From Phycisphaerae bacterium (GTDB lineage Bacteria; Planctomycetota; Phycisphaerae; UBA1845): a stretch of 64,000 nt of DNA. The notes beneath the pieces were generated by a model. The model saw nothing but the letters and a program-made list of their open reading frames with translations, searched no databases and was not told the origin of the DNA. The stretch spans positions 1 to 64,000 of the forward strand of contig JAJDDQ010000048.1 of the NCBI GenBank assembly GCA_029260215.1, in the 5' to 3' direction. Positions 7,584 to 48,566 of the stretch are shown here, one piece after another. The number at the start of each line of letters is the position of its first letter. The first letter of the stretch is position 1. Made by a program: the position numbers and the translations under genes.

Positions 7584-7596
7584 TGCTTTGACAAGC

Positions 7597-10063: not shown

Positions 10064-10089
10064 CGCTCTGAATTGAGGGGAATTGAAAC

Positions 10090-13043: not shown

Positions 13044-13056
13044 ACGGGGAAAAAGC

Positions 13057-19711: not shown

Positions 19712-19754
19712 CTGTGAAGCTGGTGGTGACCGCTTGAGGCCCAGTAACTGGGAA

Positions 19755-20489
19755 ATGTCGAAACATATGGACAAAGCTCATATCCTCTCCGAGATCAAAA
19801 GAACGGCGGATGAGAACGACGGCAAACCACTCGGGGCAGGCAGGTTCCAGAATGCGACTGGCATAAGAAAAAGCGATTGGGAGTCCAAGTATTGGGCTCG
19901 ATGGGGTGACGCACTGTCGGAGGCGGGATACGAGCCGAATCCGATACAATCCGCCTACGACGATGCGTATCTCTTGGAGATGCTGGTCTCCCTTATCCAA
20001 GAACTCGGTAGCTTCCCGACCGTACGGGAATTCAGAATCAAGGCTCATTCGGATGAAACCTTTCCGAGCTACAGCGTCTTTGCCCGCTTCGTCCCAGGCA
20101 AAGGCCGGAAGGCAGAGCTCGCCAGAAAGGTATTCAATTATGCTCAAAGGAAGGGCGGCTTGGCCGATGTTGTCGCCATCTGCCAACCCCTCTGCAAGGC
20201 TACCGATCCTATTGACGACCATTCCGAGCAATGGGGCTATGTCTACCTAATCAAGTCGGGTCGCAACTACAAGATCGGCAAAAGCAGCGACCCCGAAAGA
20301 CGGGCAGGTGAAGTGGAGCTTCTGCTTCCCGACAAGACCACCTTAGTACATAAGATCAAGACTGACGACCCTTCGGGCATCGAAGCCTACTGGCATAGGA
20401 GGTTCGCCCCAAAGCGGAAGCGGGGTGAATGGTTTAGCCTGGCCTCGGGTGATGTGGCAGCCTTCAAGCGGCGAAAGCAATTCATGTAA
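19755..20489 (+). CDS. GIY-YIG nuclease-family protein with homing-endonuclease-associated repeats
   Basis: About 244 residues from ATG 19755 (ATG 19767 and TTG 19734 are alternatives). Two N-terminal helix-turn-helix-like repeats of the homing-endonuclease-associated type are visible (about 5-58 and 70-125; ELGSFPTVREF). The C-terminal domain begins WGYVYLIKSGRNYKIGKSSD and has ERR and a later GIEAYWHRRF glutamate. That is the T5orf172/MUG113 branch of GIY-YIG. The family cuts DNA in selfish elements or acts in defence; here it is next to a relic IS-like end and has a more even base composition than neighbours, so it is probably acquired DNA. Confidence 0.88.
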   Translation: MSKHMDKAHILSEIKRTADENDGKPLGAGRFQNATGIRKSDWESKYWARWGDALSEAGYEPNPIQSAYDDAYLLEMLVSLIQELGSFPTVREFRIKAHSDETFPSYSVFARFVPGKGRKAELARKVFNYAQRKGGLADVVAICQPLCKATDPIDDHSEQWGYVYLIKSGRNYKIGKSSDPERRAGEVELLLPDKTTLVHKIKTDDPSGIEAYWHRRFAPKRKRGEWFSLASGDVAAFKRRKQFM

Positions 20490-20624: not shown

Positions 20625-22016
20625 CTACCACTTGGACCAGAGCATTGCGGGGAGGGCTACGCGCATGGTCTTCATGCGACTCAGGAAGTTTTCGTAGGGG
20701 TGGCGGACGCACTTCATCGCCCATTGCGGCGACAGGTAGAACGTGCGGTAGGCACGCTTGGCCGCTGCGCGGATATCGCTGTTGCTGAAGTTGGGGTAGT
20801 CGGGCTCGCCGTTTTCGTTGAGCCAGCCATTGTCCACGCACTCTTTGTGAAACGGTGTGCCTTCGAGCACGTTGGCTAACTGGAACTGTGCGGTGTGGGG
20901 GTTCAAGCGCTTGGCCCAGCGGATGGTGCGCTCGGCGGACTCGAGTGATTCGCCCGGGAAACCAATGGCGAAGTCGCCGTGGATGCGCAGGCCGGCACGC
21001 TTCGCATTGCGCGTGAACTCCTCCATCACTTTGATGGAGACGCCCTTCCGGATTCTCTTGAGAATTTCCGGGTCGCCTGATTCGTAGCCGACGTGCAGGT
21101 TACGACAGTTAGCCTGCTTCATGAGTTTCATCGTGTCGTAGCTCAGGTTGCTGCGGGCGTAGCAGGACCATGAATTTTTCAGGTTTCGATGGATCATCTC
21201 GTTGCTCAGCTCAACGGCGCGATCGTCGGTGAGCATATCGTCCTGAATCATGACCGCGCGGACGTCGGGCAGGTCGCGCTCGATGAATTCGAATTCGTCG
21301 ACAAGGTTCTCCACGCTGCGCATGTTGTAGGTTCGCCCCGTGACGAATGTATGCACCCACAGGCAAAACGTACACTGTCCCCAATGGCAGCCTCGGCCGC
21401 TCATGATATCGATGAACGGGTGGTATTCGGAGATGGTCTTATAGTCGTAGATGTCGAGTTGCTTGCTGAAAAAGCGGCTGACGAACGGGATGTCGTCGAG
21501 CTGCTCGCTGGTGAGGTAGGGACGATTTTCGTTCTGAACGATGCGGTCGCCGTCGCGCCACAGCAGGTTTTTGATGGTGCGCGGATCGTGTCCGTCGGCC
21601 AACTCCATCAGGGGGAATTCCATCTCACTGGTGATGCCGTATTGCACCGCGTGAGCACAAGCGAACGTCTCCTCCGGACGGGCTGAGAAATAGGGACCGG
21701 CCAACACGGTGAGGCAGCCGAGTTTCTCGGTCAGTCGATCGGCGATTTCGACGTCGTTGAGGCGACTCTTTTGCCCGGAGTAGACGACGAGCATGTCCGG
21801 TCGAAACTCGCTGACAACGCGTTCGGTCGCGGCGTGGTCGAGGTAGGCAGACGGCGCGTCGACCAGCTTGACGGTGTGGCCACACTTTTCGAGCCAGGCA
21901 CCGGCGTATCCCAGCCAGACGGGATACCACTGCGTGGAAGAGAGCGATACGAAGTCGCAGCGGGCGTTGCGCATGTAGTCGGTGACATAGGGTGGTGATA
22001 GAAGAAGTATTCTCAT
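20625..22016 (-). CDS. B12-binding domain radical SAM protein
   Basis: About 463 residues. A cobalamin-binding-like Rossmann domain occupies 1-140 (RILLLSPPY, then VYSGQKSRL and VLAGPYFSARPEE). The radical SAM core begins at DIMSGRGCHWGQCTFC with C210, C215 and C218. The spacing is C-x4-C-x2-C, one residue longer than the usual CX3CX2C. GDFAIGFPGES near 355 and the HVGYESGDPEIL strand are typical of the fold. Such enzymes do methylation or other radical chemistry on unreactive carbon. It is the last gene of a minus-strand polysaccharide set, so the substrate may be a sugar, lipid carrier or peptide; this is inference. Confidence 0.88.
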   Translation of the reverse strand: MRILLLSPPYVTDYMRNARCDFVSLSSTQWYPVWLGYAGAWLEKCGHTVKLVDAPSAYLDHAATERVVSEFRPDMLVVYSGQKSRLNDVEIADRLTEKLGCLTVLAGPYFSARPEETFACAHAVQYGITSEMEFPLMELADGHDPRTIKNLLWRDGDRIVQNENRPYLTSEQLDDIPFVSRFFSKQLDIYDYKTISEYHPFIDIMSGRGCHWGQCTFCLWVHTFVTGRTYNMRSVENLVDEFEFIERDLPDVRAVMIQDDMLTDDRAVELSNEMIHRNLKNSWSCYARSNLSYDTMKLMKQANCRNLHVGYESGDPEILKRIRKGVSIKVMEEFTRNAKRAGLRIHGDFAIGFPGESLESAERTIRWAKRLNPHTAQFQLANVLEGTPFHKECVDNGWLNENGEPDYPNFSNSDIRAAAKRAYRTFYLSPQWAMKCVRHPYENFLSRMKTMRVALPAMLWSKW

Positions 22017-22053
22017 GGTGTCACCTTACGGCACTCCATTGCGTTGATGGTTT

Positions 22054-23292
22054 TCAGTGCGTCATTCCCGCGACGACGGTCGTCGGAGTCGGGACGCGGA
22101 CGGCAGCCGGCTCCGTGCGGCGGGCCGGCGATTCTCCGTTGATGCGTTTGTAATGGCTGTCCTGCCGAAAAAACGTGTAGGTCAAAGCGGCTGCGAATAC
22201 GATGGCCAATGGAAATACGAATGCGGTCGCGAAAGTCACGAGGCTGAAGCGCTCGTTGCCGGCGGGCAGATCGACGGACAGTGCCGCCCTTCTGGCCATC
22301 AGCAGCCCGACGAAAAGCGTCAGGATCGAAAGCCCGACGACATCGAATTGGCCGAAGTTGACGAGCGTCGCGCCGAAAACGATCCACGCACCAGCCAGCC
22401 ACGGCAGGAGCAGTTGTTGAGCGAGGACTGTGGAGAAGATCGGCTTCCAGCGAGCGCTCATATCGGGCAGACGGTGACAGACGCGCAGCATTTCGCGAAG
22501 CACCGCATTGGCTTTTCGGTATTTGTGAATGAAGAATTCGCGCAGTCCGGTCGGCGTGCGCAGCTCTTCCACGGTGGCGCGCGACGAGTAAGTCGTCCTG
22601 TGGCCAGCCATGTTGGCGAGGACCGCGGCGTAGACATCGTCGGCGATGACGTCGCCCGGGAAACGCTCGATCAGACCTCTGCGAAAGGCGTAGCAACAGG
22701 CTGCGACGATAGGCACGTGGGCGACTTTGCTTTCAAGCAGTCGTACGCGGTTTTGGGCGGCCCAGTAGCATTGATCGATGGGCAGGCCGCCGCTTGGGGT
22801 TGTGCAGGCCCCCACGAGCGCGACACGCGGATCGGCTTGGAATTCAGCTGCCACCCAAGTCAGCGTGTCCGTGGCGAGACGGGCGTCTGCATCGGTGATG
22901 ACAATGTACTCGCCGGCGAGCGTCGGCAGAATGTGGTTGAGCTGATTGATTTTTCCACCCTGCGGGCAGACCTCGACGCGGACGTGCGGGTGATCGGCGG
23001 ACAGTGTGCGGAGAATCTCGACGGTGCGGTCGGTAGACCCGCCGTCGGCAAGAACGATTTCCATACGATCGGCAGGATAGTCACACGAGAGGAGGTTGCG
23101 GAGCTTGTGGGCGATGATGTCGGATTCGTTGTAGCAGGGCACGATGATCGACAGCGTGGGGAATTCTGTGATGGCGCTGATGTCGGGCGTACGCCGATCG
23201 TCGCCGACGAACTTCAGCCACACAAAGTAGCCGCTCACCAGCCACAAGAGCATCATCGTAACGGTCATGAAGCCGATCAGGCTTATCCACAT
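22054..23292 (-). CDS. Membrane-bound family 2 glycosyltransferase (processive type)
   Basis: About 412 residues. An N-terminal membrane segment (about 5-27) precedes the GT-A domain: LSIIVPCYNESD, ADGGSTDRT, VITDADAR (DxD), then DVIADDVYAA (TED-like acid). The QxxRW-like position reads KYRKANAVLRE, so the full processivity motif is not certain. Three or four C-terminal membrane segments (about 275-375) follow. It resembles hyaluronan/cellulose-synthase-like transferases that build and extrude glycans. Located 37 bases upstream of the radical SAM gene, likely in the same transcript. Confidence 0.9.
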   Translation of the reverse strand: MWISLIGFMTVTMMLLWLVSGYFVWLKFVGDDRRTPDISAITEFPTLSIIVPCYNESDIIAHKLRNLLSCDYPADRMEIVLADGGSTDRTVEILRTLSADHPHVRVEVCPQGGKINQLNHILPTLAGEYIVITDADARLATDTLTWVAAEFQADPRVALVGACTTPSGGLPIDQCYWAAQNRVRLLESKVAHVPIVAACCYAFRRGLIERFPGDVIADDVYAAVLANMAGHRTTYSSRATVEELRTPTGLREFFIHKYRKANAVLREMLRVCHRLPDMSARWKPIFSTVLAQQLLLPWLAGAWIVFGATLVNFGQFDVVGLSILTLFVGLLMARRAALSVDLPAGNERFSLVTFATAFVFPLAIVFAAALTYTFFRQDSHYKRINGESPARRTEPAAVRVPTPTTVVAGMTH

Positions 23293-23412
23293 GCGAACCG
23301 ATCCCCGTTTGACTGCAAGACGGAAATGCCCATACCGGTGACGTTCATTCGGAACGGGCTTCCGGGGGTTTTATCGGCCAATGGGGGAGGCGTCTGAATT
23401 AAGCAAGCGTGG

Positions 23413-25341
23413 TCATCTCGGCGACGCGGCGTCGGCAAGGTGATTCGCATGACGCACGACGCGATAAACGCGCGAGGCGGGCGTGGTAGCGAGGGCTCGC
23501 GTTTCGGAATCGTCGAAGATCAATTCAAGCGGCAAACCGTCAGGCCAATCAGTCGGGAACGGCTCGCGGAGACAGACGTAATCGACATTGTTGGTTTCGA
23601 GAGTGTCGGCTGTGACGGTTTCGGTCCCAGTCAACGCTCGCCAGTGAAGCCTGCTGATGGGCTCGTTGGTCAGTTCCTCGCCGAGCAGCGCGTAAGTGAG
23701 AGGCTCTTCTCCGAGGTAGACGATTCGGGCACCGGGTTCGAGTTCATCAATCACGGGCGGAATCTGATAGAACCAGCTTCGCGAGTGGTTTTTGTCGCGT
23801 AATCGACTGAGCAGAGTGTGGGCCGGCTTGAGTGTGGCGGCGGCGGCGGTGGCGAACAGCGCGATACACAGCACTGCCACAGCCGTACGCCCGCGCGCCG
23901 CGAGCACGGGCTGCCACGCGGCGGACGATACCACGATCGCGATCATCACAAAGGGCAGGACGAATCGAATCATGTCCTCGAAGACGGTCAGCAGCAGGAC
24001 GACGCCAACCACACAGAACACCACAAGAATGCGTCGCCATTGATCCTGCGACAGGCTTGTCTTCCTGCGACATCGCCAGGCAGCCACGATCAAACCGATG
24101 GGCACGAACGCGGCGAATGCAGCACCAAGCCCGTTGTCCAGCCCGTACGGATAGCCTTGGCCTGATTTCGATTCGCGCCAGGGATAACCGCCCCACCGGA
24201 CGATTTTTCGGACGAAACTTTTCTCGGCGAACCAGGCGTCTTCACCGGCGATACTCACCGTGGGAAGAATTCCGCCGCCGTCGAAATCGAGGACCATCGG
24301 GTAAACCGGGTTCCCCGTTTCCACCGTAGCCCGCAGAAACCAGAAGCCGGAGCAGACCATCGCGCCAGCCATGAAAACACCCAGCCCGGCTGCGACCCGC
24401 GCTGGCGTGCGGTGTTTTGACCATTCATTGAGTATGAGCACAATCGCGATCAGGACCGTCAGCGGCAGGAAAGTCGTCTTGCTCCCCAGCGCAATTCCGG
24501 CGAACAGCCCGGACACGGCCAGCAGACTGAACGCGGCCCGCTGAGTGCCGCACCGTGACACCCAAATCAGCGCGAGCACGGCAGCCAGCCAATGCGCCGC
24601 GGCGAAGATATCCACATAGCCTGAGAAACTTTGAAACACCACGATCGGCAGGCAAAGCGTCGTGCAAAGGGCGAGCGTCGCCGCCTCACGACCGCCTCCC
24701 AAGCGTCGCGTCAGGCTCCACGCGACGGCAGCCAGAAGCAGGACGCTGGAAACGTGCGCGAAGGAGATCATCCGCTCGTCACCGGCGGACGCGAACAGAA
24801 ACGCGACAATGCTTCCATTCGACGGCCAACAGTAGCCGCTGTGATTCTCGACGAGATTCAGCCCACCCTCGCGCGCCCACTTGAACACCTGCGGAAGATG
24901 GTAATTCATCGCGTCGTACCCGCTGGGGTAGCGGAGGGCTGCGTCGATCGCGAAAACGACGTACACACCGGCCACAATCACGACGGGCCAAAGCCAAATA
25001 CGCGACCCGGTCGAATTCTCGGCCTGTTGGATCGGGATTGGAGCCGATCGAATCCCTTGTTTGGCGATGAGCCATCGGGCTGCGACCGTGATCGCGACAA
25101 ACGTGAGCGTCACCGCGCCAAGCGTCACAAAGGCAAAGCCGGAAAGCAAAGACACTGTCGCAAGCAGGTGGATGGACGCGATCAATCCCGACATGGGCAC
25201 AACGAACGCGAGTGCCCATCGGTCGGGTCGCTCACACACGCCGAGGGTGCGCATCCAATCGCTGCCCGCCCGCCACGCGACGGTCCAAGTGACAGCCACG
25301 ACGATCAGGAGTGCGACATCGACGGTACTCATCCGAATCAC
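23413..25341 (-). CDS. Polytopic membrane glycosyltransferase-like protein (GT39/PMT type)
   Basis: About 642 residues with about 11-13 hydrophobic segments. The periplasmic loop SGYDAMNYHLPQVFKWA near 150 matches the catalytic first loop of GT39/ArnT-like transferases, where the acidic residue is needed. A C-terminal soluble tail of about 130 residues holds EEPLTYALLGEELTNEP. Such proteins use polyprenyl-phosphate sugars on the periplasmic side. Its ATG overlaps the stop of a tiny upstream membrane peptide gene (ATGA). ATG 25332 is an alternative start. A polymerase role (Wzy) cannot be ruled out because no other Wzy candidate was recognised. Confidence 0.8.
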   Translation of the reverse strand: MIRMSTVDVALLIVVAVTWTVAWRAGSDWMRTLGVCERPDRWALAFVVPMSGLIASIHLLATVSLLSGFAFVTLGAVTLTFVAITVAARWLIAKQGIRSAPIPIQQAENSTGSRIWLWPVVIVAGVYVVFAIDAALRYPSGYDAMNYHLPQVFKWAREGGLNLVENHSGYCWPSNGSIVAFLFASAGDERMISFAHVSSVLLLAAVAWSLTRRLGGGREAATLALCTTLCLPIVVFQSFSGYVDIFAAAHWLAAVLALIWVSRCGTQRAAFSLLAVSGLFAGIALGSKTTFLPLTVLIAIVLILNEWSKHRTPARVAAGLGVFMAGAMVCSGFWFLRATVETGNPVYPMVLDFDGGGILPTVSIAGEDAWFAEKSFVRKIVRWGGYPWRESKSGQGYPYGLDNGLGAAFAAFVPIGLIVAAWRCRRKTSLSQDQWRRILVVFCVVGVVLLLTVFEDMIRFVLPFVMIAIVVSSAAWQPVLAARGRTAVAVLCIALFATAAAATLKPAHTLLSRLRDKNHSRSWFYQIPPVIDELEPGARIVYLGEEPLTYALLGEELTNEPISRLHWRALTGTETVTADTLETNNVDYVCLREPFPTDWPDGLPLELIFDDSETRALATTPASRVYRVVRHANHLADAASPR

Positions 25342-25445
25342 CCGCTCAATTTTCCGGCCAACCGGGACGCTTCAGCCAGAAACGCGCGCAGCGCATCCGA
25401 AAAAACCAGGTGGACAGCCAGGCTGACGACGGCCAGGAGAAGCAT
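25338..25445 (-). CDS. Small single-pass membrane peptide, coupled to the GT39-like gene
   Basis: A 35-residue peptide, start at ATG 25445 (GAGGT nine bases upstream) and stop overlapping the next ATG as ATGA. It begins MLLLAVVSLAVHLVF and continues with a short amphipathic basic tail. The four-base overlap and the hydrophobic profile support a real gene; a longer form would need a start upstream, with an ATG at 25556. No family is recognised. It may assist membrane insertion or activity of the following polytopic protein. Confidence 0.5.
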   Translation of the reverse strand: MLLLAVVSLAVHLVFSDALRAFLAEASRLAGKLSG

Positions 25446-25722
25446 CCACCGACCTCGCTCATCGCTGATGCCACGATCTCGCGTTGAATGATTCGACGGC
25501 GTGCGACCAGCCTCGGAATCTTTTCGACGCTCGGTGGATGTCACGACGGACGATTGCACGATTCGGCTCCCGGGTGGGTGCGCGTACCGACATTGGGGCG
25601 CACGCTCCGCTTACTTATCGGCCTATCGGGCGCGGCGTTTCAGTTTTGCATTCGTGAAAACGCGCCGATCCATGCGAAAAATGTGTCTGAGAAGGCGATT
25701 CGCCCAACCCATGCCGTGAATT

Positions 25723-26985
25723 TCAGCGTTTGCGGGCATCGCCCGAAGAAACGACTCCCGACTCCCTTTCCAGGATGCGGGCGGCAATCCCGGTCTTGGC
25801 CAGCATGTAATGGTCCCAATCGTGTTTGCGGACGACGGCCAACCGCTTCTCGCGCGCAGCGGCGGTGTTGTGGTGGATGGCCTGCTCAATGCACGCTTCG
25901 AATTCGTCGGTTGTGTCCGCCACCAGCAGCGCACCGTCATACAGCTCGACCGCGGGCAGATTCGTCGTCACGATCGGCTTGCCGGCGGCTAGGTACTCGC
26001 CGAACTTCAGCGGCGTGATCGAACGCGTGAATCCGTTCACAACGTAAGGTATAATGCCGACATCGAAAGCGTTCACGTACGACGGCAGTTGCGACACAGG
26101 CTTCATGCCGAGCCGATGCACATTCGGTAAATCGTTCAGCGGCTTCGGATCGTACCCGCCCAACACGCCGCCGATGAGCACGAAACTCCACGCAGGCCTG
26201 CGTCGGGCGATCTCAAGCAGCATGTCCACATCGAATCGACACGGATCGATCATCCCGTGAAAACCCACAATCGGGTGCGGGATCGATGCAATGTCCGCCG
26301 GCGGAACCACGTCCGGATTCATCGCCTGACCGTAATGCTCAATGTCCGCCGGCCAAGGGTACATCATAATGTCGCGACTCACGCGCTCGCGCGAGCGCAG
26401 CATGTGCGGATTCGCAACGATGACCGCGTCCGCACGACGACACATCCGCAAATCCATGTCCGAAACGTAGCGTCGCAACCGATCCCCGCGCGCGAACTCC
26501 GCCGCCTCCTCCGGACACTCGTACACGACACCCTTCGCCCCGACGCGATCGACGACATCGGCTGCGTTGAATTGAAAAACCCAGAGAAGCGGGCGCGTCA
26601 TGCCCATCCGGTGCATGGCTTTCAAAATCACCCGACGGTACATCACGTTCAGCCAGCCGCGAACCAGGCGACTGTGCGCCTGACACGGCAGGAACAGCGG
26701 CGGCGTGTGGTAGATCGTGAAGTTTTCGTTGAAACGCTCGAACGGCTGCCACGCGCCCAGCATCGCCGCCCGCGCGTTCGCGTCGTGTCGCAACCAGGTG
26801 AAGCTGTCCGGCGGCTCGATGAACAAGACACGATTACGCTGGGCCAACCGAAGCGTCGTCCCGTGAACCGGCGTAAAGTGAGCGTCCCAACGCTGATGCG
26901 ACAGAAAGACGATATCCTCGCCCACAAGTTCGGTCGGAGACGGCGGAAGGCGATCAATCCAACGCAATGTCTCCTCACGGTTCAC
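25723..26985 (-). CDS. Glycosyltransferase, GT-B fold (family 1/4-like)
   Basis: About 420 residues. The N-terminal half contains VFLSHQRWDAHF and VLFIEPPDS, the C-terminal half VGFHGMIDP, LIGGV, then RLGMKPVSQLPSYVNAFDVGIIPY and the donor-site segment PLKFGEYLAAGKPIV with its conserved glutamate. These features place it with the glycosyltransferases that move a sugar from a nucleotide donor to lipid-linked acceptors in the cytoplasm. The ATG overlaps the flippase stop by four bases, so it is the last gene of the Wzz-kinase-flippase operon. Donor and acceptor are unknown. Confidence 0.9.
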   Translation of the reverse strand: MNREETLRWIDRLPPSPTELVGEDIVFLSHQRWDAHFTPVHGTTLRLAQRNRVLFIEPPDSFTWLRHDANARAAMLGAWQPFERFNENFTIYHTPPLFLPCQAHSRLVRGWLNVMYRRVILKAMHRMGMTRPLLWVFQFNAADVVDRVGAKGVVYECPEEAAEFARGDRLRRYVSDMDLRMCRRADAVIVANPHMLRSRERVSRDIMMYPWPADIEHYGQAMNPDVVPPADIASIPHPIVGFHGMIDPCRFDVDMLLEIARRRPAWSFVLIGGVLGGYDPKPLNDLPNVHRLGMKPVSQLPSYVNAFDVGIIPYVVNGFTRSITPLKFGEYLAAGKPIVTTNLPAVELYDGALLVADTTDEFEACIEQAIHHNTAAAREKRLAVVRKHDWDHYMLAKTGIAARILERESGVVSSGDARKR

Positions 26986-28280
26986 GCTTCGCTCGCCTCC
27001 CCTCGACGCAGCTCGGCATACACGCCGATCGACAGAAGCGATCCCGCCAACAAACGCGACGCCAAAACCACCACCGCCGCCCCGGCTGGACCATAATGCG
27101 TGATGGCGAAGTAGTGACCGACGAGATTGAAGACAAGAAGAAACGCGTCCAGCCCGGTCAGCACGTGGGGTTTATTGCGGGCGAAAAAAAGAATGTGCAG
27201 CGGGTGCGTGACCATCGTGAACAGCACGCCGAAATACATGATCTTCAAAAAGCCGGCGGCCGTCACAAATTCAGAACCGAACGCAAGGCGAATGCTCGGC
27301 TCGATCAACCAATAGCACGGCACGAGCGGGATGACCACCAGCAGCGAGCACTTCAGCGACGCGCGCACCTGTTCACCCAGCGGCGCACTCCGTTCATGCT
27401 CGGAAAAACGCGGCAGAAACACCGTCATGATCGACGCGCCCAGCAAATCGCCCGTCTGCACCGCCAACGCGGCAGCTTGGTACAGTCCGACCGTCGCCTC
27501 ATCGACCAGCCGCGAGAGCATCAGAATGTCGAGGCGCGTGTAGAGAAGATACAGCACGCTCGACACCACCAGCCACCGGCCATAGCCGAGCGTCCGCGTC
27601 ATCGCCGCGCACGACCACACGGGCTTGCGTGCATAACTCGGTGCCAGCATCATACCGACCCCAGCCGCACCGAAAAATCCAATCGCCGTCGCGATCATCA
27701 CACTCGTCGGCGAAAAGCGAAATGCCAAAAATATGACGATCAACGCCAACAAACGAACCGCGTTGTTGGCCACCTGCACCGGTGCATAGCGTGAGAAACG
27801 CGACTCGGCCTGTATCGCAGCCGAAGCGTAACCCCAGAACGAAGCGCCGGCCGCTGCGACAAAGGCGAGAAATACCGGAGCGATCGGCGTGTCCGGAGAA
27901 AGGAAAAACCGGGTCAGCGGACTGGCAGTGAACGCGCCCAAAAGGACAAACGCCAAAGCCCCCAGCAGCTTCAGCGCCAGCGACGTGCCAAAAATTTCAG
28001 CCCGACCTCCGCAATCATCCGCCGCCGCCAAGCGCACAGCCGTTTGGTCCAGACCCTTGCCGGTGAACTGCCAGACCGTGAACAGCACGACCAGAGACAC
28101 CGCCACAACACCGTACGACTCCGGCCCAAGCACGCGCATCGCCCAGATGTTTGCACCCAGCCCGAGCATCATCGAGCCGGCGTTCCCGCCGAACACCACA
28201 ATGATCTTGCTCATCGTCGAAACGAGGGTTGGACGCACGTTGGGAGGATCGGGCTGATTGGCAGGCTGGGTCCGAATCAT
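26982..28280 (-). CDS. Lipid-linked oligosaccharide flippase (Wzx-like)
   Basis: About 432 residues with about 12 hydrophobic segments, the usual Wzx layout. It begins with a short Pro-rich tail and SKIIVVFGGNAGSMMLGLG. RLDILMLSRLVDEATVGLYQAAALA near 240-265 is the family's characteristic amphipathic segment. It would turn undecaprenyl-diphosphate repeat units to the periplasmic face. It overlaps the genes on both sides by four bases, in an operon with Wzz, a degenerate kinase and a glycosyltransferase. This supports a Wzx/Wzy-dependent pathway, though no Wzy was recognised in the window. Confidence 0.9.
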   Translation of the reverse strand: MIRTQPANQPDPPNVRPTLVSTMSKIIVVFGGNAGSMMLGLGANIWAMRVLGPESYGVVAVSLVVLFTVWQFTGKGLDQTAVRLAAADDCGGRAEIFGTSLALKLLGALAFVLLGAFTASPLTRFFLSPDTPIAPVFLAFVAAAGASFWGYASAAIQAESRFSRYAPVQVANNAVRLLALIVIFLAFRFSPTSVMIATAIGFFGAAGVGMMLAPSYARKPVWSCAAMTRTLGYGRWLVVSSVLYLLYTRLDILMLSRLVDEATVGLYQAAALAVQTGDLLGASIMTVFLPRFSEHERSAPLGEQVRASLKCSLLVVIPLVPCYWLIEPSIRLAFGSEFVTAAGFLKIMYFGVLFTMVTHPLHILFFARNKPHVLTGLDAFLLVFNLVGHYFAITHYGPAGAAVVVLASRLLAGSLLSIGVYAELRRGEASEA

Positions 28281-28957
28281 AGCCGCCGATAGATGTAAGA
28301 CGGGATGACGAACGAGCGCTGCGTCAGCACCACGCCGACGGAACGCGCGTCGGCTGCGTCCAACTTATCGACAGCGGCGGTCACCAGTTGGGAACGCGTC
28401 CCAGCCCAGCGCACCGCGAGAAGCACACCGTCTGCCCGCGAAGCAAAACCAGCCATCCCCGGCTCGGTTAGCAGAGGCGCGGTGTCGATGAACACCCACG
28501 CGAATTGCTTGCGAATTTCGTCGAGCAACGTGCCGACGCGCTCCGACTCAGACAGAGTCACCGCGCTCACCGGTGACGAACCACAGGACAACAAACGAAG
28601 CCCATTCTCGCCGACGGACTGAATCGCCGATTTAGGTTCGACATCGCCCGATATCACGTCACTCAAACCCGGAGATGCCTGCGCGCCAAACGGCTGATGC
28701 AGCGTCGCGTTTTCGGTGTCGCCGTCGATGAGCAACACGGCTCCGTCTGTCTCCCTTGCGGCGATTTCAGCCAGGTTGATCGCCAGAGACGATCGCCCCT
28801 CTTCGTGGCCGGCGCTGGCGATCGCGCACGCACGCCGACCCGGCTCATGCAATTCACCACACAATTGCTGAAAAACCTGCCGATAGGCTTGCGCCAAACC
28901 GTTGCGACCGGCGAAGTCGCGAATCAGACCTTTGTTGGGGATGCGGCGCTTGAGCAT
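28277..28957 (-). CDS. CpsD/BY-kinase-like ATPase with degenerate Walker A
   Basis: About 226 residues, the size of a stand-alone cytoplasmic BY-kinase. The fold is clear: AIASAGHEEGRSSLAINLA, VLLIDGDTENATLH, GLSDVISGD and WVFIDTAPLL. The phosphate-binding loop reads GHEEGRSS (50-57) where family members have GEGKST: the essential lysine is R55. The Walker A' DADLRRP is DGDTENA, with the arginines lost. The C-terminus has only two tyrosines (SYIYRRL). Kinase activity is therefore doubtful; it may be a regulatory partner of the Wzz protein encoded 12 bases upstream. Confidence 0.88.
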   Translation of the reverse strand: MLKRRIPNKGLIRDFAGRNGLAQAYRQVFQQLCGELHEPGRRACAIASAGHEEGRSSLAINLAEIAARETDGAVLLIDGDTENATLHQPFGAQASPGLSDVISGDVEPKSAIQSVGENGLRLLSCGSSPVSAVTLSESERVGTLLDEIRKQFAWVFIDTAPLLTEPGMAGFASRADGVLLAVRWAGTRSQLVTAAVDKLDAADARSVGVVLTQRSFVIPSYIYRRL

Positions 28958-28969
28958 AATCCGTTAAAC

Positions 28970-30466
28970 CTATCGCGAAACGTACGGAATGGAACCGAGC
29001 GTCGGCAGCCCGACCGCTCTAGCCACACCCTCGGGATTGCGAATCGTCCGATCCACGTATTCCAGAAACGCACTCAAACCAATCGCTACGGCGAGCGACG
29101 CGAGCAACGCCAATCCCCGATTCAGCCACTTGCGCGGCTTGACCGGATCGAAATTCGCTTCCGCCGGCTCGACAATGCGCACGCGCGTCTGCGTCGTGTA
29201 TTCCGCGATCGACGCGTCCTCGCGCTTGCGAATCAGGAACTTGTACACCTCGCCCCGGTGCTCCTGATCCCACACAAGCGTTTGATATCGCGTGTCGAGA
29301 TCGCTCAGGCGATTCAGCTCCGCCCGCGTCTCGTCGATCTCAGCCCGAAGCGAGTTCTTGAGCGTTTCCGTATCGGTATTCGGCGCATTCGGGGCGTTCG
29401 GAGCGGCTTGGGGATAATCCTTGCGCAGCTCGCGAATCACTTCGTCGATCGAAGCCCGTGCAGCCAGCACCTTGGGATGATCGGGCTGATAGGTCGTTTC
29501 CAGTTCCGCCAGTTCCGATATCTTGTCAATCAACGCATTGCGTTCGCGCGCGGACAATTCACGCACAGCCATCGCCTCACGCTGATACGCCTCCCACGTG
29601 GACAACTCCCGCACCGATTCCTTCTGAGAAAGATCCCAAAAAGTCAGTTCCAGCAGCGCTAACTTTTCCAGAGCAGCATCAACCTGCCCGTCGATATCCG
29701 CGATACCGTGCTTGTTCTTGAAAACCGCGACCGCGTCGCGCGCCGCCTCAAAAATAGGCCCCACCGCGTCGATTCGCTTTTCGATCGAGTCGTGAATGTT
29801 ACGCGCCTGACCGATTCGCGCTGCCAGTTCGTTCCTCGTGAAAACCTGCGTGATTTGGTTCGCGACGGCGGCGGCTAGCTCCGCGTCCCGATCGTGAACC
29901 GTGAGCAGCAGCACGTCCGTATTCGGCATGGGTTCCACCATGAGATTCGAACGCTGCCTGAGATGGTTGACCGCCAATTCGAATTTGCTCGGTTTTCGGG
30001 GCGGCTTGTACGTCCCACCCAATGTTTCGACCATGAGCCGCTTAACGCCCTGCTTCAGACCGCGAAGCGCGTCCATGACCCCGCGGGCCAGTCCATGAAT
30101 CCGATCGCGTAGTCCCTCAGACGGAACAGGTCTTTCGTCCAGCGCCAGTGCGCGAACCACTTCCTTCAAATTGGGATCGGAGGTGAGAATTTCGCTTTGA
30201 GTCTGTGTGATTTCCGACTTTTTGAAGACAATGTTTTCCCGCGAAAAGGGCACATCGAAGCCCGCCGGCCCTTCGATTAGCAGTTTCACCTGCGACTCGT
30301 AAATCGGGTACACAACGTAGTTGGCGAACTCGGTGACCAACAGCGAAAGCACGATGAGCGAGACGATCATCAACCGCCGGCGGTACCAGATATCGACGAT
30401 CTCGCGCAGGTCGATCTGCCGCCCGCCCTCGGGATTCAATCGTTCGCGTGAAGGTGCTTCGCTCAT
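28970..30466 (-). CDS. Chain-length determinant protein (Wzz family)
   Basis: About 498 residues from ATG 30466; a GTG at 30502 would add 12. A Wzz domain begins IDLREIVDIWYRRR, with the first membrane segment at about 33-53 and the second at about 455-475. Between them lies a long periplasmic coiled-coil (about 200-420), including a Pro/Asn-rich hinge of APN repeats near 360. The C-terminus ends PTLGSIPYVSR, with the linker that BY-kinases usually follow, but the kinase is a separate gene. It should set polysaccharide chain length. The pairing of a split Wzz/kinase here with a fused one at 7781 suggests two assembly systems. Confidence 0.9.
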   Translation of the reverse strand: MSEAPSRERLNPEGGRQIDLREIVDIWYRRRLMIVSLIVLSLLVTEFANYVVYPIYESQVKLLIEGPAGFDVPFSRENIVFKKSEITQTQSEILTSDPNLKEVVRALALDERPVPSEGLRDRIHGLARGVMDALRGLKQGVKRLMVETLGGTYKPPRKPSKFELAVNHLRQRSNLMVEPMPNTDVLLLTVHDRDAELAAAVANQITQVFTRNELAARIGQARNIHDSIEKRIDAVGPIFEAARDAVAVFKNKHGIADIDGQVDAALEKLALLELTFWDLSQKESVRELSTWEAYQREAMAVRELSARERNALIDKISELAELETTYQPDHPKVLAARASIDEVIRELRKDYPQAAPNAPNAPNTDTETLKNSLRAEIDETRAELNRLSDLDTRYQTLVWDQEHRGEVYKFLIRKREDASIAEYTTQTRVRIVEPAEANFDPVKPRKWLNRGLALLASLAVAIGLSAFLEYVDRTIRNPEGVARAVGLPTLGSIPYVSR

Positions 30467-30626
30467 GCCCGAATCGTTTCCCGAAAATGACCGCGACCAC
30501 ACCCAACGTGGTGAACAGGCTGAAAAAACTTCTGAAACACGCTCTATGTATCGCCGCGCCGACGACCCTCGCGTGACATTAGATGAGCTGCCGATTGGCT
30601 GTCAATGCGCCGGAGACGATCGCGCA

Positions 30627-31451
30627 CTACTCAAAACGCAGAAGATACAGGTCCTGCGTCGGATTGCCCCTTGCACCCTCCGGCACGAAGTCCACCACCC
30701 TGCAACCGCGCGAAAGATTTTCCCGGACGTAGGCTTCTGAGAAAAAGGTTGTGCAGATATTCTTGCCCGCCAGATGCGCACGCCGCACGACCAGCTCGCC
30801 GCCGTTGAATCTTCGCCGCTCGTCGTCCGATAACCCCGGCAGGTACGATTGGCCGTGGGTGGTCATCAGCAGATGCCCGCCCGGTTTGATGACGCGGCGT
30901 ATTTCGTCCATCCAGGCAAATTCCAAATCCTGCCCCCAGTGCGTGAACACGGACAAGGCATACGCGAAATCGAACTTGCTGTCGGGGTAGTCGAGCGGCG
31001 GCGACAGCTCGTTCATGCCGAATTTCGCAAAAGTCAGATTTTCGCGACACCACCCGATCAGCTTGCCGTTGTAGTCCGTGCCGCAGATTTCGACGTTCTT
31101 CAAGTCCGAAAAATGGCGAATCACGCGCCCGCACCCGCACCCGAAATCAAGCATCGCTTCAAATTTTCTGGGGTCGATTTTGTTCCGCCGGAGCGTATCG
31201 GTGATGGCGTCGTGGCCTCTCCTGCCCAGCGCCAGGAACCATTCTACATTATAGGTGCCCGCGACCAAGTAAATGAGTCTTGCCGGGGGGATTGGCCAAC
31301 CGTCGCCACTGCCTCCGTTGCGGCAGCGTCTGTTGCCCAAAATCGTCTTTGGCGAGAGCAGCGTGCCCAGACCCCGGGCCTCGTTAACCATCTCCAGCAT
31401 GCCGAGATCGGTCAAGGCTCCGATAATCCGTCTTTTCAGCGCGATGACCAC
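30627..31451 (-). CDS. Class I SAM-dependent methyltransferase
   Basis: About 274 residues from GTG 31451 (GGGGAA seven bases upstream). Motif I is MLDFGCGCGRVIRHF near 112; the acidic end of strand 2 is ICGTDYNGKLI; motif III/post-I is FDFAYALSVFTHW; IKPGGHLLMTTHG follows. A final region (VVDFVPEGARGNPTQDLYLL) is seen in methyltransferases of polysaccharide loci. It may methylate a sugar or terminal residue, which could limit chain length. It is 160 bases upstream of the Wzz gene in the same direction, so it may lead the operon. Confidence 0.92.
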   Translation of the reverse strand: MVIALKRRIIGALTDLGMLEMVNEARGLGTLLSPKTILGNRRCRNGGSGDGWPIPPARLIYLVAGTYNVEWFLALGRRGHDAITDTLRRNKIDPRKFEAMLDFGCGCGRVIRHFSDLKNVEICGTDYNGKLIGWCRENLTFAKFGMNELSPPLDYPDSKFDFAYALSVFTHWGQDLEFAWMDEIRRVIKPGGHLLMTTHGQSYLPGLSDDERRRFNGGELVVRRAHLAGKNICTTFFSEAYVRENLSRGCRVVDFVPEGARGNPTQDLYLLRFE

Positions 31452-31988
31452 GAATGTGTTCCCCGGTGCAATCTATCCACCCCAAACGTCGTCACAATCC
31501 ACCTCAGCCGCCAATTCCGGCCTCAATGAACCGGTTTCGCCGGATTGCCCCAGCGACTGTAGGGGGCGGCCTGTGGGTAGTCAACGTCCGATAAATGACT
31601 TGCTTGCCTATAATCCCGCGTGTTACGTGGTTTTCCGGAACCCATTGGCGACCGTAACTTATCGTTGAGTTTATCCGATCAAGATGTTTGCATTCATCCC
31701 CAAATTGGTACATAATGAATACTGTGCGTATTGTAAGGTAAAAGGAAGCTTTTCCTGCGATGCCACCGGACGGGGGGAACGCCGGGGCCGGTCGTTACTA
31801 CCCTTCCAGGGTACATCCCGTCGTCTTGGCATCGGAAGAATCGATCACAATGGGGACGCGTTTCCGCACTTGACGTGAAATGTAGGCCTCCGAATTGAGG
31901 CTGGATCGCGCTTGATCGCGCGGCCTATAGTAGTGTGGGGCGCGCGGATGAAATTGATTGGGACGCGTAGAATAGCCTGAGGGGTTGC
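31452..31988. other. Divergent 537-base intergenic region
   Basis: It separates the minus-strand methyltransferase operon from the plus-strand radical SAM gene, so it should hold both promoters. A CCTATAATCC (31607-31616) and a CTATAGT (31925-31931) are possible -10 boxes but lack good -35 partners. No hairpin of note or small gene can be supported. AT content is higher near 31590-31740 than in the flanking genes, which fits a regulatory region. Confidence 0.35.
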
Positions 31989-33647
31989 ATGAATAAGCTA
32001 AATCTGAGTCTCGAAACGTTGATTCTGCCACCGACGGGGAACGGGGCTGCGAGCACGCGACCGGACAAAGTCCGCGATCGCAGCGGCGGACACGCCAAAC
32101 GCGTTCTGCTGGTTTTCCCGCCGATGGTGTTTTCCAAATTTCAGTCGCGTCAGACCGCGCTTTTCCCGCTTGGCATTGGCTATGTTGCAGCCACGCTGCT
32201 GCAGGCCGGTTACGAGGTGGAAATGCTGGACTGTCCGTCCGAGGGCTACGACACACTGGTGGACATCGGTAAGGATCGGTATGTCTACGGCCTGACCGAG
32301 GACATTATCCGCAAGCGTATTGAATCGTTCCAACCGGACGTGGTGTGCATTAGCTGTTTGTTCTCGACGCTTGAGAATCGCATGATCCGTGTCGCGGACA
32401 TCGTCAAGTCGATTGACCCCGATATCGTGACCGTTTGCGGTGGTCCTCACGTGTCTGCATTTTACGAGCGTATCACCAGGAATCCAGCCGTCGACTTCTG
32501 CATCAACGGCGAAGGCGAATTCGTCACGCTGGAGCTTCTTGACGCCATCAACGGCAAGCGCAGTTTCTCCTCGGTACACGCGATCAGCTACAAGAGCGCA
32601 GGCAAGCTCATCGTTCAGCCGCGGACATCGTGGATCCAAGACCTCGATACCGTGCCCCACCCCGCTCGACAACTGGTCGATATGGACAAATACTTCACGA
32701 TCGGCAAGACGCAGGGGCTTCGCCTGGACGGCGCGCAGCATCCGCGCCTGGCCCAGTTGACGACCTCGCGCGGTTGCCCGTTCCAATGCACCTATTGCGC
32801 CAAGAACGTCACGTGGGGCAAGTCCTACCGTACGCGCAGTGCGGAAAACGTTATCGACGAAATTGAGCAGCTTGTCGGCACATTTGGTGCGAACCGGCTG
32901 GCGTTTCAGGACGACAATTTTACGGCGGACATGGGCAGAGCGGAGACGATCTTCGACACGATGATCGAGCGCAAGATTCCGGTTACGTGGGAGGCGCACA
33001 ACGGGTTGGGTGTGAACTTCCTCAGCCCGCCCCTGCTGGAAAAAATGCGGGCCAGCGGTTGCGAAAGTTTTACGATCGCCGTCGAAAGCGCCAACAGCCC
33101 GCGTTTGCGGAAGGTGCGCAAGCCTAACTACATCAAACTCGCACCGCCGATCGTGGACAAGGCTCGCGAACTCGGCATTGAAGTGCGTGGGTTCTTCATG
33201 ATCGGTTTCCCCGGCGAAACGCTGGATGAGGTTTGGCGCACGGTGGAGTACGCTCGCAGCCTGGACTTGGCGGTCACCGCGTTTGCCGTGGTCACGCCGC
33301 TGCCCGGAACGGTGCTGTACAACGAATGCGTCGATGCCGGCTTGATCGACGAGACCACCATCGACTACGAAGATTTCAGCTTTGGTGGGTTCGACCTCCA
33401 GCTTTCAGAAGTTCCGGTGGATCAGCTCAAGTGCGTGCGTAAGATCGAGTGGCTGAAGACCGTTTTTCTGGACCGCGAAGGCAATTTCAAGACGGACCTG
33501 CAGATGGACCCGCAGGACATGATCGAGGAGTTGGCCAACGGTATGAGTCTGTTCCCCGACAATGCGGAGTTGCAATCGCTGCATGCCAAGGCGCTTGCAC
33601 ACTTTGAAACCAAGGGATTGGCGGACGAGCTTCGGGCGGCGGTTTAG
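31989..33647 (+). CDS. B12-binding domain radical SAM protein
   Basis: About 552 residues; GAGGGG lies five bases before the ATG. A cobalamin-binding-like domain covers about 35-190 (RVLLVFPPMVF, LFPLGIGYVAATLLQAGYEV, VCGGPHVSAF). The radical SAM core has TSRGCPFQCTYC with C263, C267 and C270 in canonical CX3CX2C spacing, then TFGANRLAFQDDNFT and the later GFFMIGFPGET. A C-terminal extension of about 110 residues (ends DELRAAV) is helical. It resembles the B12 radical SAM methyltransferase/oxidoreductase superfamily. It begins the plus-strand half of the second polysaccharide region; the substrate is unknown. Confidence 0.9.
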   Translation: MNKLNLSLETLILPPTGNGAASTRPDKVRDRSGGHAKRVLLVFPPMVFSKFQSRQTALFPLGIGYVAATLLQAGYEVEMLDCPSEGYDTLVDIGKDRYVYGLTEDIIRKRIESFQPDVVCISCLFSTLENRMIRVADIVKSIDPDIVTVCGGPHVSAFYERITRNPAVDFCINGEGEFVTLELLDAINGKRSFSSVHAISYKSAGKLIVQPRTSWIQDLDTVPHPARQLVDMDKYFTIGKTQGLRLDGAQHPRLAQLTTSRGCPFQCTYCAKNVTWGKSYRTRSAENVIDEIEQLVGTFGANRLAFQDDNFTADMGRAETIFDTMIERKIPVTWEAHNGLGVNFLSPPLLEKMRASGCESFTIAVESANSPRLRKVRKPNYIKLAPPIVDKARELGIEVRGFFMIGFPGETLDEVWRTVEYARSLDLAVTAFAVVTPLPGTVLYNECVDAGLIDETTIDYEDFSFGGFDLQLSEVPVDQLKCVRKIEWLKTVFLDREGNFKTDLQMDPQDMIEELANGMSLFPDNAELQSLHAKALAHFETKGLADELRAAV

Positions 33648-33698
33648 TGTTGTGGTGCGCGGTTCAGGAATGTGGCGTACGCTACATGACTCATCTGA

Positions 33699-33715
33699 GT
33701 TGTACGCAATACAAC
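33699..33715. promoter_or_regulatory. Short perfect dyad, operator or hairpin candidate
   Basis: GTTGTA and TACAAC flank CGCAA. It lies between the radical SAM gene and the sugar-transferase gene, next to a GTGTCGCACGCGACAC repeat. Confidence 0.35.
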
Positions 33716-33748
33716 TTATTCGTGTCGCAACGCGACGTGACTTGATTC

Positions 33749-33777
33749 GTGTCGCACGCGACACGCCGAAGCGGGTG
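33749..33777 (+). repeat. GTGTCGCACGCGACAC-type repeat, copy 1
   Basis: Begins GTGTCGCACGCGACACGCCG and ends AAGCGGGTG. A partial relative, TTCGTGTCGCAACGCGACG, precedes it at 33719-33737. Full-length relatives in the same orientation are at 45689-45717 and 46313-46341. The core is a near-palindrome that can form a hairpin. Confidence 0.8.
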
Positions 33778-33899
33778 AGGGTGACTTGGTGCGCGATTAG
33801 CGTGGTTCACTCTTTGCCCGGTCGAACGCAATGAATTGATCCTCGCCGGTGCGAATTTGGGGGTATCCGGTGCGGTCTTAGCAGACCCGAGGGACAAGG

Positions 33900-34796
33900 A
33901 TGCGAAAGAGGGGAATCGATCGCGATGTGGATGGGCCGCTGCCTGCGGCGGTGTTGACGGCGGAAACTGCGGTCGACGCAGGTTCTCCGGATGCGCGCGC
34001 GCTTCGGCTGAATGATGAGATTCTTACGACTCATCTGAATGAGGTGTTTGCCAATCACTTCAGGAACCATCGTCGATGCCCATTCGGCGTGCGTGTCAGC
34101 CATCTGTTCAAACGTATATTCGACATTTGTTTTCTCCTGGCGGGCGCGGTCGTTGCGCTGCCTTTGATGGCGTGCGGTGCGGTGGCGACATTGATCGATA
34201 CCGGGCGTCCGATTTTTTACGTACAATCCCGCCGGGTGCGTTTCGGGCGTATCGCGCGGATTTACAAGATGCGCACGTTGCTGGTCGGCAGCGATCGCAA
34301 CCTCGATGCACTGATCAGCGTCAAGCATCACGGGAAGTTTCTGAACGTAGCCAAGGACAATACGCGCTACACGCGCATCGGGCGGTGGTTGGAGAGGCTG
34401 TGGATTGTCGAACTGCCGCAATTGCTCAACATCGCCCGCGGTGAGATGAGCGTGGTGGGCAATCGGCCTATCCCGGATTACGTCATCAACGCCCTCGGCC
34501 CGTCGGCGGAAGTCATCGAACGCTTCGCCAGCCCGCAGGGTTTGACTGGATACGTGCAGGCAATCGGCAGAGACGACGTGACGGATGAAGAGCGCATCCT
34601 GCTCGAATACCATTATTCCGACGTGTTTGAACGCGGCAATGTGTTTCTGGAAGACATGAAGATCGTGTTCTTGACCACGCTTGCCTACTTCGGCAAGACC
34701 ATCACGGTCGCACATTTTCTGGGTAACGACTACCGTACACGCTACCGCAACTTCTTCACCGAAGGTGAAGAACGGGAATCATCGCATGGGTGCTAA
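33900..34796 (+). CDS. Phosphoglycosyltransferase-like protein, catalytic Asp missing
   Basis: About 298 residues; AGGGACAAGG precedes the ATG. After about 70 unconserved residues there is the re-entrant membrane helix (about 79-101), GRPIFYVQSRRVRFGR and KMRTL, as in bacterial sugar transferases (WcaJ/PglC). The dyad that is normally Asp-Glu in DELPQL reads VELPQL: V170-E171. MSVVGNRP is retained, but PGITGLWQ is altered to QGLTGYVQA. In PglC the aspartate forms the covalent phospho-sugar intermediate, so this protein is probably inactive or mechanistically different. It overlaps the next radical SAM gene by 11 bases. The intact paralogue is the fusion protein encoded at 10090. Confidence 0.85.
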   Translation: MRKRGIDRDVDGPLPAAVLTAETAVDAGSPDARALRLNDEILTTHLNEVFANHFRNHRRCPFGVRVSHLFKRIFDICFLLAGAVVALPLMACGAVATLIDTGRPIFYVQSRRVRFGRIARIYKMRTLLVGSDRNLDALISVKHHGKFLNVAKDNTRYTRIGRWLERLWIVELPQLLNIARGEMSVVGNRPIPDYVINALGPSAEVIERFASPQGLTGYVQAIGRDDVTDEERILLEYHYSDVFERGNVFLEDMKIVFLTTLAYFGKTITVAHFLGNDYRTRYRNFFTEGEERESSHGC

Positions 34797-36024
34797 GGTC
34801 AACGGCATATTGAAAAAAAATGGCGTGGTGCGCAAGCTGAACCAGCTTCAGCACCAGGCCAAAGTCGCCCTCGGCGCGCGCACGCAAAGCACCGCGTTCA
34901 CGGGACCGCTCTATGTTCAGGTCGGCGTCGTGAATGCCTGCAACTATCGCTGCACATTCTGCTGGGATCAGCCATCGTTTGTTCCCAAGGACGCACCGTA
35001 CACCGACGAAATCTCCGAGGCGTATTACAAAGCCAATCCGCAGATCGACCGCAACAAGGCCCACATGGAATGGGACAAATTCACCGAGCTGGTGGACGAT
35101 CTGCACGGGATGGGCACGCGGAAGATCAAGTTCATCGGTCGCGGCGAATCGTTTCTGCACAAGCGTTTCATGGATATGGTCACGTATGCGAAAGAGCGGG
35201 ACTTTACCGTGTCCATCACCACGAACGGTTCGCTGGTCACCGATGCGGACGCACGGCGACTTGTGGAACTCGGCGTGGATGAACTTTACGTCAGCGTCAA
35301 TGCCGGTTCCACGAAGTCGTACTCGGAAATCCACGTCAACACCGCACCGGACATGTTTGAGCGTATCAAGCGCACACTGAAAATCGTCACGCAGGCCAAA
35401 CGCGACGCGGGCACGCAGATGCCGCAGATGAATCTCAGCTTCGTTATTCAAAACAACAATTATTTCGAACTCGAAGAGATGGTCGAGACGGCGCACGAGG
35501 TCGGCGCGCAGAAGGCGCACTTCATCGGTATCAGCACGTACGACGGAACAAAGTTTCTCGAGCTCGACGACGAACAGAAGGCTGACATGCCCAATCATCT
35601 CGAACGGGCGGTCGCGTTGGCTGAGAAACACGGTATTGAGACCAACGCTGATTTTTTTCTGTCGCGGGCCAGAATCTACAAGGGTACGCAGGATGTTTAC
35701 GACCAGGTGCCCTGCTACATTGGGTGGTTTTTCAGCATTATTCTGGCAGACGGCACGGTGAATCCTTGTTGCGAGTGCCTGCGTTGCATCGGCACGCTGA
35801 AGACGCATCGTTTTCGGGACATCTGGTTCGGCGAACAATACAAGAAGTTTCGCAAGGAAAATACGAATCTGCCGTTTGCCAAAGAGGAGATTCCCGGCTG
35901 TCGTTGCCACGATTGCGGCTTCAGTCTGCATAACCTGGCGATGCACCGTGTGCTGCACCCGATCGCGAGTCGCAAGATCAAAGACATCGCATACAGTTTT
36001 GAAGATCTTAAACAGTTCATTTAG
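34786..36024 (+). CDS. Radical SAM/SPASM-domain protein
   Basis: About 412 residues from ATG 34786, which overlaps the previous gene. CNYRCTFC (C52, C56, C59) binds the SAM iron-sulfur cluster. The middle has VSITTNGSLVTD and LYVSVNAGS. The C-terminal SPASM-like region supplies extra cysteines: a Cys of QVPCYIGWF, then NPCCECLRC, then PGCRCHDCG, enough for one or two auxiliary clusters. Family members modify peptides or carry out dehydrogenation and epimerisation of sugars or cyclitols. Its overlap with the divergent phosphoglycosyltransferase suggests a job on the lipid-linked glycan, but a peptide substrate is also possible; no precursor peptide was found nearby. Confidence 0.9.
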   Translation: MGAKVNGILKKNGVVRKLNQLQHQAKVALGARTQSTAFTGPLYVQVGVVNACNYRCTFCWDQPSFVPKDAPYTDEISEAYYKANPQIDRNKAHMEWDKFTELVDDLHGMGTRKIKFIGRGESFLHKRFMDMVTYAKERDFTVSITTNGSLVTDADARRLVELGVDELYVSVNAGSTKSYSEIHVNTAPDMFERIKRTLKIVTQAKRDAGTQMPQMNLSFVIQNNNYFELEEMVETAHEVGAQKAHFIGISTYDGTKFLELDDEQKADMPNHLERAVALAEKHGIETNADFFLSRARIYKGTQDVYDQVPCYIGWFFSIILADGTVNPCCECLRCIGTLKTHRFRDIWFGEQYKKFRKENTNLPFAKEEIPGCRCHDCGFSLHNLAMHRVLHPIASRKIKDIAYSFEDLKQFI

Positions 36025-36048
36025 AGCAGGGTTGTTCGGAATAGCTGT

Positions 36049-40414: not shown

Positions 40415-40429
40415 GCTAGGCGCGTGCCG

Positions 40430-47965: not shown

Positions 47966-48097
47966 TGCAATCCTCCCTGATTGTCTCGCCGCAATCGCGA
48001 ACGTGTTGCGTTTGCGTGCGAACCAAGTTCGGCGCCTTTTTCGGGGCGCTCACGGTCGGTCGCGATCCTTGCGACGACCGTTCGCCATCGTGCTCCG

Positions 48098-48535: not shown

Positions 48536-48566
48536 GGACACAAACCGACGGTTGATCCAGCGGCCG

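Follow-up and report, generated by a model that had tools for sequence, protein, structure and literature searches.

Two separable radical SAM modules in a planctomycete glycan assembly region, one pairing an HpnJ-like enzyme with a membrane glycosyltransferase

The window analysed here, a stretch of 64,000 nucleotides, is part of an 88-contig, 4.97 Mb Planctomycetota genome (a Phycisphaerae bacterium, hereafter G000) and contains three genes encoding radical S-adenosylmethionine (SAM) enzymes that lie among genes for glycan assembly. Designated rSAM1 (20625-22016, minus strand), rSAM2 (31989-33647, plus strand) and rSAM3 (34786-36024, plus strand), these genes belong to two separable modules. 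Module A (20625-25341, minus strand) comprises a multi-transmembrane protein that is probably a GT-C type transferase (mem642), a membrane glycosyltransferase of family 2 (GT2) and rSAM1. Module B (31989-39438, plus strand) comprises rSAM2, a polyprenyl-phosphate sugar-1-phosphate transferase (PGT), rSAM3 and a fusion of a GH2 domain with a PD40 propeller (GH2-PD40), with a class I methyltransferase gene divergent to rSAM2. With a probability of about 55%, we favour a reading in which these are two neighbouring glycan-tailoring modules, rSAM1 remodelling a lipid-linked sugar made by GT2 and module B acting at glycan initiation.

All three products match PF04055 well over its cut-off (62, 74 and 65 bits for rSAM1, rSAM2 and rSAM3, respectively), in agreement with a preliminary description of this DNA. 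With 28 radical SAM matches in the 4.97 Mb genome, the chance that three of them fall together in any one stretch of 15.4 kb is, by our own arithmetic, ca. 10%, so that clustering alone is not significant and was dropped as evidence. It is the conserved neighbourhoods in relatives that lift the clustering above chance. Samples of 114 genomes of the order, 392 of the phylum and 297 acidobacteria were searched. The relatives concerned are named in databases as Phycisphaerae or Planctomycetota metagenome-assembled genomes (MAGs), plus one Acidobacteriota MAG; those compared below for the presence of the three genes are mostly drafts, in which the absence of a single gene is not absolute. Within the order, rSAM1 orthologues (71-79% identical) occurred in five other genomes (G051, G065, G082, G083 and G084), and rSAM2 orthologues with matching context, together with rSAM3, in G054, G083, G084 and G039. 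rSAM1 was thus found without the two others in G051, G065 and G082, and these without rSAM1 in G054 and G039. Based on these presence patterns, rSAM2 and rSAM3 travel together and rSAM1 apart, and the treatment of the three as one set was rejected. The proposed association of these enzymes with glycan assembly was borne out, the GT2-rSAM1 pair recurring in two phyla and the rSAM2-PGT-rSAM3-GH2-PD40 series in four further genomes.

The link between rSAM1 and GT2 (22054-23292, minus strand; PF00535, 86 bits) is conserved across the two phyla. An orthologous, full-length GT2 (34-62% identical) accompanies rSAM1 in G083, G082, G159, G168, G281, G371 and the acidobacterium, and a fragment of this partner was found with rSAM1 at a contig end in G051. 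At 55% identity or more, GT2 occurred among the 114 genomes of the order only in the rSAM1 carriers G000, G082, G083 and G084, a distribution expected by chance at ca. 2e-6; this estimate and the Fisher test given below ignore kinship among genomes. The seven aligned GT2 orthologues keep the motifs DxDA and ADD and carry HKxRKxNA at the site where QxxRW is expected. Judging from its sequence, GT2 is probably a non-processive enzyme that would place a single sugar on a lipid. In the literature covered, which was largely without subscription papers, no description of the rSAM1-GT2 gene pair was found.

rSAM1 itself belongs to a distinct clade with its own motif. Over its full length the protein matches the HpnJ profile TIGR03471, with 310 bits for a cut-off of 577.6. 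The clade comprises 11 sequences, from Planctomycetota and one acidobacterium, and is monophyletic (support 100/100). Its cluster motif is CX4CX2C in 11/11 members (CHWGQCTFC in rSAM1, with cysteines 210, 215 and 218), and the canonical CX3CX2C was found in the other HpnJ-like proteins examined. In the tree, the clade stands apart from that of HpnJ and is possibly its sister, with a support of only 84/67. The motif columns were included in this tree; because the branch of the clade is long (0.83 changes per column), one inserted motif column cannot account for it. The survey of the 392 phylum genomes with TIGR03471 added G159 (70% identical), G281 and G371 (53%) and G168 (48%), and the clade was found in 1/297 acidobacteria, with 46% identity. 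This family, HpnJ-like yet not HpnJ, is apparently undescribed. The preliminary description had assigned a B12-binding domain to both rSAM1 and rSAM2, which is solid for rSAM2 (PF02310, 74 bits) and weak for rSAM1 (26.6 bits, under the Pfam cut-off of 32.1). The predicted structure of rSAM1 has a mean predicted local distance difference test score (pLDDT) of 82, with low values at residues 13-28 and 211-229. A fold search with this model gave MgmA the best E-value and AprD4 the best TM-score (0.71, E 5.7e-21), the AprD4-like fold being common to other B12-type radical SAM enzymes also.

Squalene-hopene cyclase searches returned only matches below 30 bits in the window genome, for which the hopanoid pathway was rejected. 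No hopene cyclase over cut-off was detected in G000, G051, G065, G082, G083, G084, G159, G168 or the acidobacterium (best match, 64 bits), so that the substrate of rSAM1 in these carriers is unlikely to be a hopanoid; among the carriers tested, the cyclase occurred only in the related genomes G281 and G371, both of which look complete. Separately, G201 and G295 have HpnJ proteins over the family cut-off, yet no squalene-hopene cyclase was found in them; in this phylum, a score over the TIGR03471 cut-off may not be specific to hopanoid producers, or these two genomes may be incomplete.

The gene order mem642-GT2-rSAM1 is the same in the window and in G083, where an orthologue of mem642 (23413-25341, minus strand) with 45% identity adjoins the pair, and rSAM1 loci of relatives hold PMT_2 proteins at the equivalent place. 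The locus of G082 reads B12-type radical SAM, GT2, PMT_2, methyltransferase, SPASM radical SAM and rSAM1, and that of G051 holds five radical SAM genes, a GT2, a methyltransferase and a PMT_2 protein besides the partner-GT2 fragment. The loci of G159, G281, G371 and G168 each hold a class I methyltransferase besides an orthologous GT2, with a PMT_2 protein in all three of those scanned (G159, G281 and G168). In the acidobacterium, rSAM1 adjoins a GT2 (44% identical), after which come genes for an NAD epimerase and a methyltransferase; compared with the G159 copies, the epimerase is 48% and a fatty-acid desaturase homologue 51% identical. PMT_2-type GT-C proteins thus occur in most rSAM1 loci of relatives, NAD epimerases in several, and a class I methyltransferase in 9/9 multi-gene loci, that of the window lying 9 kb from rSAM1. 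Further radical SAM genes were found in 8 of 10 loci with the CX4CX2C motif versus 1 of 7 loci of other HpnJ-like proteins (Fisher, ca. 0.013), and loci of the rSAM1 clade hold one to six radical SAM genes, up to five besides rSAM1. The G159 locus (L091, contig C102) has six radical SAM open reading frames (ORFs) within 10.6 kb (3990-14632) around the rSAM1 orthologue. This locus also has GT2, methyltransferase, epimerase and desaturase genes; an ORF read at 8844-10460 on its minus strand was wrong, the radical SAM gene there being on the opposite strand.

Module B was found only in this order and probably acts at glycan initiation. The PGT gene (33900-34796, plus strand; Bac_transf, PF02397, 116 bits) sits between rSAM2 and rSAM3 and overlaps the start of the latter by 11 bp; the preliminary description had rightly placed the radical SAM genes among glycan genes, and the PGT was missing from its inventory. 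The rSAM2-PGT-rSAM3-GH2-PD40 series is intact in G083 and G084, whereas in G054 and G039 its genes are spread over contigs or rearranged. The divergent methyltransferase (30627-31451, minus strand; PF08241, 50 bits) adjoins rSAM2 in G083, G084 and G054, with genes for Wzz and the kinase coming next in G054. The PGT of G054 and that of G039 are fusions with a methyltransferase domain, and a further B12-type radical SAM gene is present in these two genomes. rSAM3 is a SPASM protein, as had been described (PF13186, 37.7 bits for a cut-off of 21.5, cysteines conserved), with orthologues (60-78%) only in G054, G083, G084 and G039. The secreted GH2-PD40 protein (36049-39438, plus strand; PF02836 and PF07676), encoded by the last gene of the module, has 52-72% identical orthologues in the module B of relatives. 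Its C-terminal end, with a cysteine, a hydrophobic stretch and a basic tail, is similar in G083, G084 and G054 and is possibly a sorting signal.

Neither rSAM1 nor rSAM3 was found to move independently of polysaccharide genes, and rSAM2 did so in part, a 62-66% identical paralogue occurring in varied contexts in three genomes (G000, G083 and G054). One such paralogue (64-66%), near 9837-11435 of locus L051 (contig C75 of G000), has genes for a carbonic anhydrase and for a BtrH_N-domain protein as neighbours. The subgroup placement that had been suggested yielded nearest families (HpnJ for rSAM1, NF038361 for rSAM2 and TIGR04317 for rSAM3), with no family cut-off reached. Methylation, dehydration and epimerisation, as previously put forward, are possible chemistries for these enzymes.

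In the mechanism that we propose for module A, the membrane GT2 would put a sugar, possibly an amino sugar, on a lipid acceptor. The [4Fe-4S] cluster of rSAM1, held by CX4CX2C, would then make a 5'-deoxyadenosyl radical that takes hydrogen from the lipid-linked sugar, remodelling it by ring contraction (as HpnJ), dehydration or deoxygenation (as AprD4) or C-methylation (as GenD1). A sugar substrate would be the common theme for rSAM1, since these three enzymes, its nearest characterised relatives (HpnJ by sequence and AprD4 by fold), act on sugars of glycoconjugates. The GT-C-like mem642 may then transfer this sugar, in its remodelled form, to a glycan outside the membrane, following the logic of ArnC and ArnT. 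For module B, PGT would begin a polyprenyl-linked glycan, the first sugar or sugars of which would be modified by rSAM3 (SPASM) and rSAM2 (B12), and GH2-PD40 would process the product outside.

Several observations weigh against this scheme. The rSAM1 model is unsure precisely at the cluster loop (residues 211-229), and the predicted structure of rSAM3 is poor (pLDDT 54). The best profile for GT2 is PgaC/IcaA, matched by its N-terminal part only, and the enzyme might therefore build a polymer. Its orthologue was not found in the rSAM1 locus of G065 (L034), and G084 has it on a different small contig, apart from rSAM1. mem642 has no family match and no detectable similarity to the PMT_2 proteins of relatives. 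The 392-genome phylum sample gave no further rSAM3 orthologue, module B being restricted to its lineage, and the desaturase homologue that two of the rSAM1 loci have nearby would fit a glycolipid product too.

That last point bears on the strongest of the alternatives, namely that rSAM1 and GT2 make a membrane glycolipid (a non-hopanoid lipid of cyclitol-ether type or a deoxysugar lipid) and that the polysaccharide genes nearby are incidental. HpnI and HpnJ do work on a membrane lipid (PMC12583986), the desaturase homologues near rSAM1 in the acidobacterium and in G159 are related, and similarity showed no Wzz or Wzx genes in the other rSAM1 loci. We nevertheless lean against it and consider it doubtful, since PMT_2-type GT-C transferases and nucleoside diphosphate-sugar genes recur in rSAM1 loci and a multi-transmembrane, GT-C-like protein adjoins the GT2-rSAM1 pair in the window and in G083. 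The least probable of all the alternatives makes rSAM1 a drifted HpnJ of the hopanoid pathway, producing bacteriohopanetetrol (BHT) cyclitol ether. The full-length TIGR03471 match, the possible sister position (84/67) and the hopene cyclase of G281 and G371 agree with it, but the cyclase did not exceed the cut-off in nine other carriers, the window genome included, rSAM1 falls under the HpnJ cut-off with another cluster motif, its partner is not HpnI (36 bits against 310) and no deacetylase was seen beside rSAM1.

The remaining alternatives concern the other two enzymes. Many SPASM and B12-type radical SAM families act on peptides, and the best profiles of rSAM3 are maturases (TIGR04317, 117 bits), as would be expected if rSAM2 and rSAM3 were maturases of ribosomally synthesised and post-translationally modified peptides lying by chance within a glycan locus. 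This is improbable, as no family cut-off was reached, the adjacency to PGT is conserved and, consistent with the earlier report of no precursor peptide, no small ORF in the module gaps examined is conserved outside the nearest relatives of the window. It is more improbable still that rSAM2 is a phosphinate P-methyltransferase of the Sden_1168 family, putting methyl-phosphorus groups on the glycan. NF038361 is its best profile, matching most of rSAM2 with 267 bits; this score is under half of the curated cut-off (575), and the readable matches to the phosphoenolpyruvate (PEP) mutase family (PF13714) have the KRCGH motif typical of methylisocitrate lyase, with citrate-synthase/PrpD-like genes nearby. 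Because these matches are methylisocitrate-lyase-like, no phosphonate source was seen in these genomes.

The interval between the modules completes a minus-strand run that reads methyltransferase, Wzz, tyrosine kinase, Wzx, GT4, mem642, GT2 and rSAM1. It encodes a Wzz chain-length determinant (28970-30502; PF02706, 37 bits; TIGR03017/TIGR03007), an exopolysaccharide-type tyrosine autokinase (28277-28957; TIGR03018, 88 bits, under the family cut-off), a Wzx-type flippase (26982-28280; PF13440/PF01943) and a group 1 glycosyltransferase (GT4; 25723-26985; PF13692, 41 bits). Beyond module B, on the plus strand, are GT4b (40364-41680; PF00534, 137 bits) and GT2b (41574-42524; PF13641, 33 bits), both also near module B in G039 (locus L050; 60% and 50% identical, respectively), and a sugar nucleotidyltransferase (42547-43539; PF00483, 112 bits). 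Elsewhere in the window, a MUG113/T5orf172 homing-endonuclease-like protein (19734-20489) adjoins rSAM1, a second exopolysaccharide operon (7781-14999) has a Wzc-like kinase, a PGT with hexapeptide repeats, Wza and WecG, and flagellin and FliW genes (46499-49016) lie downstream of the glycan genes. In relatives, a DUF362/ferredoxin protein is encoded in the rSAM1 locus of G168 (L089, 5360-6538), and the PGT-methyltransferase fusion of G039 (L050, 2536-4701) has weak Fer4 matches; both are possible electron donors for radical SAM enzymes.

Radical SAM sugar chemistry has so far come mainly from antibiotics and hopanoids. In uncultured planctomycetes, the rSAM1-GT2 pair seems to extend this chemistry to the assembly of surface glycans, which would point to unknown sugar structures. 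We tentatively suggest that, in planctomycetes and an acidobacterium, the rSAM1 clade and the HKxRKxNA-type GT2 might define a new pathway of lipid-linked sugar remodelling. As many as six radical SAM enzymes of this pathway would rebuild carrier-lipid sugars to give surface glycans with carbocyclic or carbon-skeleton-altered sugars unseen in polysaccharides. The combination of a CX4CX2C HpnJ-like protein with an HKxRKxNA GT2 would offer a genetic marker for locating such pathways, with the warning that HpnJ-like genes alone are not hopanoid markers.

Among known systems, HpnJ turns a lipid-bound glucosamine into a cyclitol ether (PMC12583986), and the HpnJ/HpnI system of BHT cyclitol ether resembles module A in the full-length match of rSAM1, the membrane GT2 partner and a sugar already attached to lipid. 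It differs in that rSAM1 has CX4CX2C, a separate clade, 310 bits against 577.6 and a GT2 of another subfamily, with no hopene cyclase over cut-off and no HpnK-like neighbour seen by rSAM1. AprD4, the apramycin diol dehydratase, deoxygenates an aminosugar with its reductase partner AprD3, and its structure is available with paromamine (PMC5461906). This enzyme gives rSAM1 its best TM-score, and a NAD(P)-dependent short-chain dehydrogenase/reductase lies near several rSAM1 copies, but none was found beside that of the window, and rSAM1 reaches only 58 bits with the AprD4 profile NF033070 (cut-off 500) and ca. 19% identity. GenD1, the gentamicin C-4'' methyltransferase, C-methylates the aminosugar of an aminoglycoside and has a reported Cx4Cx2C motif (PMC4340712), as in rSAM1; it is a cobalamin-dependent protein of 77 kDa, whereas rSAM1 has 463 amino acids and a weak B12 match. 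For rSAM2, the Sden_1168 family (NF038361) is the closest profile, with rSAM2 under its cut-off and no PEP mutase found. ArnC-ArnT shares with module A the logic of a GT2, a modifying enzyme and a GT-C transferase; the likeness of the GT2 and GT-C components is one of logic, and the step that sets module A apart is the remodelling by a radical SAM enzyme.

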